From Echinostoma caproni (taxonomy: Eukaryota; Platyhelminthes; Trematoda; Plagiorchiida; Echinostomatidae): a stretch of DNA of 64,000 nt. The translations under genes were made by a program, and so were the position numbers. Of the stretch, positions 26,661 through 58,840 are shown one piece after another (position 1 is the first letter of the stretch; every line of letters begins with the position of its first letter). The notes below the pieces were generated by a model, which saw nothing but the letters and a program-made list of their open reading frames with translations, was not told where the DNA came from and searched no databases. The stretch covers positions 1-64,000 of the forward strand of contig UZAN01039967.1 of the NCBI GenBank assembly GCA_900618425.1, given 5' to 3'.

Positions 26661-26850
26661 AGCAAAACCTGTCGGGCAGTCAGCTTACATGCTACCTGTT
26701 GGATACAATACGCTTCTGCAAGTTGAATGGGTGATTTGGTGTGGCCACGTAGCACCGTTAGTAACGCCCGTGCTATCCAAAATCATAGGCGGCGTCCATG
26801 TGTGGGTTTGAATCCAATTGAGGCTACTGAAATTTCCACAATTTTGCCAT
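26661..26850 (+). mobile_element. tRNA-derived SINE-like relic
   Basis: TGGCCACGTAGCACCG (about 26,741-26,756) resembles an A box, and GTGGGTTTGAATCC (about 26,802-26,815) is a good B box. GAGGCTACTGA follows. The spacing is longer than in a normal tRNA, and the arms do not pair into a cloverleaf, which argues for a tRNA-derived SINE rather than a tRNA gene. A composite with the preceding relic is possible. Confidence 0.4.
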
Positions 26851-47258: not shown

Positions 47259-47544
47259 TGGTAGTTTCAATGCAATGGAAATGTTTGTGATAACCGAGAA
47301 AAAGCATTGGACAGCTGTTTCGTTCTGTATGGGACTCGTCAGCAGTGCGCACTTGTTGTGCCCTTGTCGGGACTCGAACCGTCAACCTTCGGGTTGGGAT
47401 TTCAAACCCTTACTCCTGAGTTACACGTTAGACAGTCATCACTTTGTGCGCATGGCTCAATCAATTCTGAGGGCCTTGGGTGTGGGTTTCACTCGCTGAT
47501 GCCTCTGAACAATTGAATGGGCTAATCCAAGCTTGATTCTCTAA
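47259..47544 (-). mobile_element. tRNA-headed short element with hammerhead (copy C), full insertion
   Basis: A 286-bp insertion inside an older repeat, flanked by 9-bp duplications. On the minus strand the order is a 5' segment, a tRNA-like region with TAACTCAGGAGTAAGG and a canonical B box GGTTCGAGTCCC (about 47,354-47,365 on the plus strand), then the hammerhead at 47,348-47,304, then a short 3' tail (CTCGGTTATC...). The internal pol III-type B box and the ribozyme mark it as non-autonomous. Its 5' segment differs from that of the 58.5-kb copy, so it represents a related subfamily. No ORF is expected. Confidence 0.75.
47304..47348 (-). ncRNA. Type I hammerhead ribozyme (copy C), core intact
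   Basis: Minus strand, 5' to 3': stem I strand GCACTG (47,348-47,343), core CTGACGA with G closing stem II (47,342-47,335), stem/loop II TCC-CATACA-GAA, C plus core GAAA (47,322-47,318), stem III CAG/CTG with no loop, cleavage triplet GTC ending at 47,310, and stem I strand CAATGC (47,309-47,304). All invariant positions (CUGANGA, GAAA, UH) are present. Stem I and stem II each have one A:C mismatch. Cleavage is predicted between 47,310 and 47,309. The zero-loop stem III suggests dimer-dependent activity. Confidence 0.85.
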
Positions 47545-51669: not shown

Positions 51670-52291
51670 GTCTATGAAAGGAATGAAGGATTTGATTTGA
51701 TTACATGACGAATTGGTCGTTCAAAACATCCAATCAAATCATATCCACCACTCCTCTCATATATAAAATAATAAATATGAATATATAAATAATAAAATGA
51801 ATGAATAACTAACAAACATTTAGGACTTTCTCGGAGAAACCCCTTATCCTGAATGGTCCACCGATAAAAACTTTCAGGAAAGGTCACTTTCCGAACAGGC
51901 TCATGAGGCTCAAAGGAAGGAAATATTCCTCCGTATACCTTTTCAAGGAGGTGTAATATCTCCGGACCTACAACGCAGCTCGATTATCGTGTGTTCACAG
52001 GCTCGCCCTTCAACCCAATCTTCAACGAGGATAGGCTGCCTACGCTGGCAACTCCTATGGTTATTTACTCCTTCGCGTGCGTTTGTAATGTAACGTACAC
52101 GTCAAGGGAACAATCCCAATGAATGAAGGAACTACTGCCCACGCTAGTTAGAGCAAATAGGCACAGGGAACATAGGAAGCGCCACTCTTGGTCATTTAGG
52201 GGACACCGGTCATCANCATTTACGTTCAGTGTGGCCTATCCTGTGCCCCCCAACCCCTCTAAGGCAGTTCGCTTACACAAACTGACTACCG
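51670..52291. other. No gene recognised between short element and repeat copy
   Basis: An AT-rich patch of TAAATAATAAA-type sequence at about 51,765-51,805, then GC-richer sequence with one undetermined base at 52,216. An open frame at 52,123-52,452 (plus, 109 codons) runs antisense into the repeat copy and has no recognised motif. Confidence 0.45.
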
Positions 52292-52574
52292 CTGAGGAGA
52301 TAATTATTCGTCTTTTCACAACAGAAATATGCGCAAAAAGGCGACGGGTTCAAGCCGTACATTTTCCCTGTCGCGAAGTAGATGCCCAACATAACCGCCG
52401 CCACCACCAACGCTCCAATCATAATCCATCCCACCCAAACACGGACACATAGGGCTCACCCGCCCCCCTCTCCCCATCCCGAATGATCTTTCGACCCAGC
52501 GTGAAAATGTGATCTCATATGACCTGTTCAGGCACGATTATGAATCATTCGAAAACAATTGCTCGTCTTCGGAC
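52292..52574 (+). repeat. Unclassified interspersed repeat, right inverted copy
   Basis: Reverse complement of the interrupted copy at 47,032-47,603. Because it lacks the short element, it preserves the pre-insertion state (GCTTGAAC directly followed, on the minus strand, by CCGTCGCCTTTTTGCGCA). Together the two copies form an inverted pair about 4.7 kb apart. Confidence 0.85.
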
Positions 52575-52746
52575 TTGTGTTCTTGTCATCTGTAGTTTAG
52601 CAGGTTCAACTCAGTGGATGAGGATGAAGCGGATGATAATCCGACGAAGATCAGTTCGATGCACTGCAATCTAATGCAGTGGAACGATAAACCATCCAAT
52701 CATCACCTCTAGAGGAATCCCTAAATTAGTGGATGAACCGCATTAA

Positions 52747-58374: not shown

Positions 58375-58707
58375 TTAAATTTCAAATGGGAATTAGTCGT
58401 GTATATAGCAAATGAAGCGTGAACTGAAAAGCTCGGAAGCACTGGACAGCTGTTTCGACCTGGTTGGGTCTCATCAGCAGTGCGAATCCATCGACCCGAC
58501 TGGGGATCGAACCCGGGACTAGGCAGAACGCAAGCGTGCTACTCACTACGCCACCGGGCAGCTGATCAGACGGTTTTTTATTTTCCATTTACACGATGTA
58601 GCACAACCCATCTTTGAAAGTTTGTTGCGGGCCACGGACCCTGCTCAACTCAGCACTAGCCTCCCGGGTTATGACTCGGTTGTAAACATTCACAACCTGA
58701 CTGATTA
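58375..58707 (-). mobile_element. tRNA-headed short element with hammerhead (copy A)
   Basis: On the minus strand, 5' to 3': a 5' segment (GGGAGGCTAGTGCTGAGTTG, CCCGCAAC) shared with copy D; a tRNA-like head with A box TGGCGTAGTGAGTAGC (about 58,554-58,539) and B box GGGTTCGATCCCC (58,513-58,501); CAGTCGGGTCGATGGATTC; the hammerhead at 58,483-58,439; and a 3' tail ending AATTCCCATTT. Both pol III promoter boxes look canonical, so transcription from within is plausible. Near-identical 26-bp direct repeats flank the copy. No ORF is present, as expected of a non-autonomous element. Mobilisation by a PLE or another retrotransposon is inference. Confidence 0.75.
58439..58483 (-). ncRNA. Type I hammerhead ribozyme (copy A), canonical core and stems
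   Basis: Minus strand: stem I GCACTG (58,483-58,478); core CTGATGA plus G (58,477-58,470); stem II GACC/GGTC with loop CAACCA; core GAAA after C (58,457-58,453); stem III CAG/CTG without loop; cleavage triplet GTC ending at 58,445; stem I CAGTGC (58,444-58,439), a perfect 6-bp partner. Every invariant hammerhead nucleotide is present. Outer bases GGA (58,490-58,488 region) and TCC (58,437-58,435 region) could extend stem I across an internal loop. Predicted cleavage lies between 58,445 and 58,444. Confidence 0.92.
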
Positions 58708-58733
58708 TTTCATGTAGGTAATGGGGGATTTGG
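58708..58733 (+). repeat. 26-bp direct repeat, right copy
   Basis: Partner of 58,349-58,374; two substitutions. It directly precedes copy B. Confidence 0.7.
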
Positions 58734-58840
58734 ATTTGCACTGCTGTTGAGACCCAACCAGGTCGAAACAGCTGTCCAGTGCTTCCGAGCTTTTCAGTTC
58801 ACGCTTCCTTTGCTATATGCACGACGAATTCCCATTTTCA
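58731..58840 (+). mobile_element. Short-element fragment in inverse orientation (copy B), ribozyme plus tail only
   Basis: Positions 58,738-58,837 are the reverse complement of 58,384-58,483 with 96 of 100 bases identical. The fragment carries the hammerhead and the 3' tail but no tRNA-like head: similarity starts only about seven bases before stem I. Copies A and B therefore form an inverted pair with 100-bp arms and a 254-bp spacer, able to fold into a long hairpin if co-transcribed. Confidence 0.85.
58738..58782 (+). ncRNA. Hammerhead ribozyme (copy B), core mutated
   Basis: Same architecture as copy A on the plus strand: GCACTG, CTGTTGAG, ACC-CAACCA-GGT, CGAAA, CAG/CTG, GTC, CAGTGC. The core reads CTGTTGA instead of CTGATGA, changing the invariant A at position 6 to U. 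Loss of that base is known to cripple hammerheads, so this copy is probably inactive despite perfect stems. Confidence 0.85.

Follow-up and report, generated by a model that had tools for sequence, protein, structure and literature searches.

Short retroposons that encode hammerhead ribozymes have been on record since 1998 (Ferbeyre and others, as cited in PMC2770079). Two schistosome examples, Sm-alpha and Sj-alpha, are characterized as SINE-like retrotransposons of this kind, and the Sm-alpha-like elements of S. mansoni have been traced to tRNA-Gln (PMC2770079). The activity of the Sm-alpha hammerhead is reported to have been confirmed, and the source of that report also lists W36.2_W001, a sequence similar to Sm-alpha with a unit of 335 bp (PMC8490949). 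In S. haematobium, 16 hammerhead-like clusters have been reported, of which seven overlap SINE/tRNA repeats and two overlap LINE/RTE-BovB repeats (PMC5993326). Animal retrozymes are described as tandem repeats with type I hammerheads (PMC7229834) and are said to be devoid of promoters (PMC7761336). Penelope-like elements have been named as the likely mobilizers of these retrozymes on the grounds that the two coexist in genomes and have type I hammerheads in common; the hammerheads of Penelope are characterized in the same review as lacking helix III or the loop-loop contacts (PMC7761336). For Penelope insertions, the reported features are a terminal repeat in inverted orientation, a tail of 31 bp and, in some insertions but not in others, a target duplication of 8, 9 or 10 bp (PMC3846280). 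According to a further source, reverse transcription of Penelope RNA starts internally, AT-rich targets have been proposed, and for one Penelope protein tested in vitro, insertion did not need hammerhead cleavage (PMC11167929).

We analyzed a 64,000-nucleotide stretch of contig UZAN01039967.1 of the trematode Echinostoma caproni (the window), in which a tRNA-like sequence and a hammerhead adjoin each other on the minus strand near 58 kb. This element is probably a short retroposon of the Sm-alpha/Sj-alpha kind that combines a tRNA-like head, likely a pol III promoter, with a hammerhead that is predicted to cut, and that was likely reverse-transcribed from an RNA longer than one 359-base unit. 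The sequence evidence for this assignment includes the boxes and their spacing to the hammerhead, the presence in the window of two copies with intact hammerhead cores, and the insertion structures at 47 and 58 kb described below. An earlier note on this DNA had suggested a distinct, little-described class; the Sm-alpha and Sj-alpha elements (PMC2770079) and the SINE/tRNA hammerheads of S. haematobium (PMC5993326) had already been described.

The type I hammerhead motif of the 58-kb element occupies positions 58483-58439 of the minus strand. In a covariance-model search of the window, which the earlier note had proposed, this motif matches Rfam RF00163 with a significant score of 49.9 bits (E 5.9e-10, threshold 34). 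The pair check recovered six of the six pairs of helix I and four of the four pairs of helix II, and all core letters are present (CTGATGA / GAAA / GTC), in full agreement with the initial description of a complete type I hammerhead with perfect stems I and II and an invariant core. The predicted cut falls between 58445 and 58444, exactly where that description had placed it. The window was originally thought to contain a single hammerhead; the Rfam search yields three matches (49.9, 45.5 and 45.4 bits). Helix III of the 58-kb motif is formed by ACAGCUGU, in which two pairs (A-U and C-G) close a palindromic AGCU tetraloop; alternatively, the same letters could serve as an 8-base palindrome pairing between two RNAs. 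Given that helix III can form these two pairs, the motif is not strictly zero-loop, and the earlier assignment to a Penelope-type stem III of that form is not supported. In the predicted fold, the extended helix I contains an internal loop followed by an outer GGA/UCC pairing, and natural hammerheads in which an internal loop in helix I engages in loop contacts resemble this fold. In this same minimum-energy fold, predicted for the lone hammerhead, core letters pair with letters of helix III instead of adopting the active fold, which counts against the explanation that invokes a working ribozyme. Searches for hammerhead patterns in viral contigs and prokaryote genomes, collections unlikely to hold an animal element, returned none.

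Upstream of the hammerhead, on the same strand, are an A box, TGGCGTAGTGAG (58553-58542), and a B box, GGTTCGATCCC (58513-58503), which match 11 of 12 and 10 of 11 of the consensus letters used for scoring, respectively. The A box begins 40 bases upstream of the B box, and the hammerhead begins 19 nt downstream of the latter; the previously reported order and strand are thus retained, and the spacing, given as about 18 bases, is corrected to 19 nt. By dedicated tools, the tRNA-likeness of the head is weak: ARAGORN found no tRNA, and the Rfam tRNA model, which aligns with the head from its first to its last position, scores 13.5 bits (E 2) against a threshold of 29. The tRNA-like pol III head proposed in the earlier note thus has both boxes but is not recovered by tRNA detection tools; it is a likely driver of pol III transcription. 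On both strands of the window, there are five B-box matches with at least 10 of 11 letters, compared with a mean of 2.21 per sequence, at any position, in a set of 100 randomized sequences whose dinucleotide composition was that of the window. Two of the five sites stand 19 and 21 nt upstream of a hammerhead on the same strand. An A box with at least 10 matching letters accompanies two of the five (random mean 0.27, maximum 3); one of these two A-plus-B-box sites, at 26805, has no hammerhead, and the second element of the window, at 47 kb, is not among them.

This second element is a 286-bp insert at 47544-47259 of the minus strand, delimited by alignment with an empty site (283 bp if the target duplication is taken as 12 bp). 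Its B box, GGTTCGAGTCC (47380-47370), matches all 11 consensus letters, and its best A box matches 9 of 12. The hammerhead (47348-47304, minus strand; 45.5 bits in Rfam; predicted cut at 47310/47309), which follows the B box by 21 nt, has an intact core, and helices I and II each contain a single C-A mismatch; the helix II pair 14-25 is A-U at 58 kb and U-A at 47 kb. The insert is bordered by two copies of GTTCAAGCT, at 47553-47545 on the 5' side and at 47258-47250 on the 3' side, which are identical in 9 of 9 letters, or in 11 of 12 when extended to 47542 and 47247, respectively. When joined, the flanks align through the junction with positions 52270-52620 of the plus strand (258 identities in 317 aligned letters), and a word like GTTCAAGCT stands once at the junction in this relative, which lacks the insert. 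The target duplication together with the empty site shows that head and hammerhead entered the 47-kb site as one unit. The proposal that the two form one retroposed element is borne out by this single insertion, and the possibility that they are unrelated adjacent insertions, which the earlier note had named as a potential refutation, is excluded for the 47-kb copy by the empty site. The source of the empty site is an unnamed repeat with two copies, at 52299-52581 (plus strand) and 47601-47025 (minus strand), which are 76% and 84% alike in two blocks.

No similarity between the 47- and 58-kb elements was found outside the B box and the hammerhead: the scores for body and head are reached by 726 and 722 of 1000 random sequences, and that for the tails by 415 of 1000. 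Accordingly, the two elements represent either different subfamilies or different families. The 47-kb insert contains one hammerhead, with no second one inside it, so that the interpretation in terms of more than one unit depends on the 58-kb copy and on a junction at 51 kb that is described below. A direct dimer with a period of 282 bases, composed of a fragment at 47630-47605 and the hammerhead starting at 47348, was considered and rejected because the fragment lies outside the insert, within the target repeat. The fragment itself (minus strand) retains 22 of 26 hammerhead letters, a score reached by none of 1000 random sequences, and gives no hammerhead match in Rfam.

The 58-kb insertion has a more complex structure. 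Its limits had been set at 58707-58375; the flanking 10-mer and the inverted and direct repeats show instead that the inserted DNA encompasses 483 bp, 58834-58352 on the minus strand. The order of its parts is an inverted hammerhead arm, the start, the body, the tRNA-like head, the hammerhead, the tail and a partial second start. The inverted arm (58731-58834, plus strand) lacks the head and is identical in 99 of 104 letters to 58387-58490. It includes the third Rfam match (58738-58782, plus strand; 45.4 bits), in which the core is altered to CTGTTGA, so that this hammerhead is probably inactive. The unit start word occurs twice on the minus strand, at 58733-58708, where its first three letters overlap the inverted arm, and at 58374-58349, where it resembles a Penelope "tail" and its last three letters overlap the flanking 10-mer; the two copies are identical in 24 of 26 letters and are separated by a period of 359. 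The entire insertion is bracketed by the 10-bp sequence AAAATGAAAA, on the left at 58844-58835 and on the right at 58351-58342, the only two sites of this word on the minus strand of the window, which likely represent a target-site duplication. In 4 of 4000 draws, a random pair of stretches had 10 letters in common (pairs containing N were skipped), and 96 of 6000 A-rich matched pairs had a 10-mer in common, so that the duplication is only moderately supported. The 483-bp insertion contains no stop-to-stop ORF of at least 150 aa and no ORF for a telomerase-like reverse transcriptase with a GIY-YIG endonuclease.

A complete direct dimer was not seen at 58 kb, where the second hammerhead is inverted. 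Read in the order of the RNA, the insertion would comprise the hammerhead arm of one unit (inverted), followed by start, body, head, hammerhead and tail, and then the first 22-26 bases of the next unit. Provided that the start word is part of the unit, this order requires either an RNA of more than one unit or a circle. The inverted arm and the repeated start thus suggest, without proving it, that the RNA copied at 58 kb exceeded one unit. The resulting footprint resembles Penelope-like insertions or the products of twin priming.

The body and tRNA-like head of the 58-kb element have a diverged counterpart at 51647-51474 of the minus strand (68% over 182 columns). No hammerhead is recognizable behind this head, and there is no Rfam hammerhead match; candidate relics at this position were discarded because their scores are reached by 470, 405 and 57 of 1000 random sequences. 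When the stretch of the 47-kb element that extends from the B box into the hammerhead is aligned behind the 51-kb head, its score is reached by 2 of 1000 random sequences. In front of the head, there is a start-like word (11 and 13 of 1000 random sequences for the two 58-kb words), as well as a tail-to-start junction like that at 58 kb (3 of 1000 reach the joint score); the tail alone was not found there (182 of 1000, or 402 of 1000 for the tail of the outer arm). An AT-rich, imperfect palindrome (69% over 91 columns) is present at 51673-51761, just before this SINE relative, and the tail-to-start stretch overlaps it, which somewhat weakens the support for the latter.

The region between the 51- and 47-kb copies is occupied by a decayed LINE (50979-47797, minus strand) with pieces of reverse transcriptase in several frames, flanked by the diverged SINE head immediately upstream and the hammerhead SINE immediately downstream. 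One of these pieces, 49008-48655, matches RVT_1 with an E of 0.00044, below Pfam's cut-off; for the LINE, PDB gave an R2-type reverse transcriptase with an E of 0.022. Farther along the minus strand, 42551-41734 presumably contains pieces of a second LINE-like reading frame; it has no Pfam match, and a protein search with 42129-41734 was also empty. The LINE reading frames look trematode-like and, together with the type of the hammerhead, suggest a flatworm. A 151-aa ORF at 15766-15314 (minus strand), the motifs of which we took to resemble the GIY-YIG region of Penelope, was rejected as a Penelope ORF given the lack of support from Pfam, PDB or the protein collection. The Pfam sample consisted of 10 of the 114 ORF pieces of at least 75 aa, nine of them minus the last codon.

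Several other explanations of these observations have to be weighed. It is a serious possibility, if short of a probable one, that the two copies are relics of an ancient SINE family and are at present neither transcribed nor cleaved. The changed core of the inverted arm, the decay of the 51-kb head copy and the two mismatches in the helices of the 47-kb hammerhead would all fit such relics, whereas the 58-kb hammerhead has kept every core letter and every pair that was checked.

That the 58-kb structure is the product of a nested insertion seems unlikely. Under this scenario, a 5'-truncated, headless copy would have been inserted first, on the plus strand, and a complete minus-strand copy would have followed at its 5' edge; the idea that the two 26-bp words are the target duplication of that second copy is equally unlikely. 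The words do directly flank the minus-strand copy, and there are 5 differences between the arms in 104 letters. However, a start-like word followed by the same body, and joined to part of the tail, also precedes the 51-kb head at the scores given above, which makes the 26-bp word look like a part of the element; after this comparison, the words, which had been taken for a target duplication, were re-read as unit starts. Furthermore, the second copy would have had to land exactly on the edge of the first, and the outer 10-mer would have to be assigned to the first copy, which would leave a start-like piece stranded in between.

Runs of T bear on the length of the putative transcripts. A T4 run, a possible pol III terminator, lies 8 nt after the 58-kb hammerhead (58430-58427, minus strand), and a T5 run lies 0 nt after the 47-kb hammerhead (47303-47299, minus strand); on this strand, 9.8% of the sampled positions are followed within 12 nt by the start of a run of at least four T, and 0.5% are followed within 0-1 nt by the start of a run of at least five. 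These runs make short transcripts ending just behind the hammerheads plausible and speak against long products of pol III; read-through would be required for multimers. A distinctly unlikely alternative is, accordingly, that the pol III RNA comprises the head and the hammerhead only and ends at the T run. The hammerhead would then trim the U-tailed 3' end, and what would be left, with a probability that we put just as low, is a head RNA of about 120 nt with a cyclic phosphate, with no multimer or circle formed. Apart from the T runs, this scheme has the merit that initiation at the head excludes the inverted arm from the transcript. In an RNA that reads through from upstream, the two arms are predicted to pair as a long hairpin; such a hairpin would hide the 58-kb hammerhead, which would stay accessible in a transcript initiated at the head. 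Against this alternative, the T-run pattern was picked after looking and involves two copies only, and an RNA devoid of tail and body could not alone give rise to inserted units that carry both. That a B-box-like word merely adjoins the hammerhead by chance is highly improbable: the tRNA scores under the tool thresholds and the A-plus-B-box site without a hammerhead would be compatible with unrelated neighbors, but the order and spacing are seen twice, once within a single insertion with an empty site, which contradicts this explanation for the 47-kb copy.

We return to the proposed retroposon, transcribed from its own head and copied from RNA of more than one unit. In the proposed mechanism, pol III would initiate upstream of or near the A box and transcribe the hammerhead, in many cases terminating at the T run. 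Where joined units were read through, the resulting multimers would be cut at 58445/58444 into units, and a host ligase could close the cut units into circles. A reverse transcriptase acting in trans, either Penelope-like or from a LINE, would then integrate the product. The inverted arm at 58 kb is compatible both with a head-to-head, Penelope-type insertion and with twin priming, in which a LINE enzyme acting on multimeric RNA would give the same arm; the AAA end of the target would anneal to UUU within the upstream unit's tail. The specific proposal that Penelope-type machinery inserts a tRNA-headed hammerhead SINE from circular or multimeric RNA is doubtful. We found no report of a Penelope footprint on a hammerhead SINE in the open-licence literature. 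If the proposal is true, the 58-kb combination of an inverted arm, a unit-start tail and a short, AT-rich target duplication would constitute the first structural footprint to tie hammerhead SINEs and retrozymes to Penelope, and pol III would provide the driver presumed missing from animal retrozymes. Should the 58-kb architecture recur genome-wide, insertion footprints alone would suffice to name the enzyme that mobilizes hammerhead SINEs and retrozymes. Otherwise, the element is an ordinary addition to the kind reported since 1998; the 47-kb copy and its empty site show that head and ribozyme travel together.

Compared with the known systems, the 58-kb element shares with Penelope insertions, as described (PMC3846280, PMC11167929), a head-to-head inverted terminal repeat, a short tail extension, a short target duplication, a hammerhead and an AT-rich target. 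It differs in that the extension is 22-26 bp, as opposed to 30-40 bp, and in that the hammerhead can form helix III. All three traits of the Penelope footprint are seen, the duplication being moderately supported and the arm being equally expected from twin priming. The metazoan non-LTR retrozymes, as characterized in PMC7229834 and PMC7761336, have in common with it a hammerhead of type I, a unit length of a few hundred bp and a short helix III with a tetraloop; they are tandem dimers to multimers and are described as promoterless, whereas the 58-kb element has a pol III-like head. At least two direct hammerheads one unit apart, which define retrozymes, are found at neither locus, the second hammerhead being inverted at 58 kb and the 47-kb insert having one. 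The S. haematobium clusters likewise place an RF00163 hammerhead inside repeats annotated as SINE/tRNA; in PMC5993326, they are reported as small-RNA clusters. With respect to Sm-alpha and Sj-alpha, with which the comparison is by description only, the 58-kb copy differs by its additional parts, the inverted hammerhead arm and the incomplete second start, and its head has not been traced to a tRNA, in contrast to the derivation of the S. mansoni Sm-alpha-like elements from tRNA-Gln given in PMC2770079. The resemblance to this kind nevertheless extends to the SINE-like organization, the type I hammerhead with an intact core, the close unit size (335 bp in W36.2_W001 and 359 at 58 kb) and retroposition as one unit with a target duplication, which is apparent at 47 kb and moderately supported at 58 kb.
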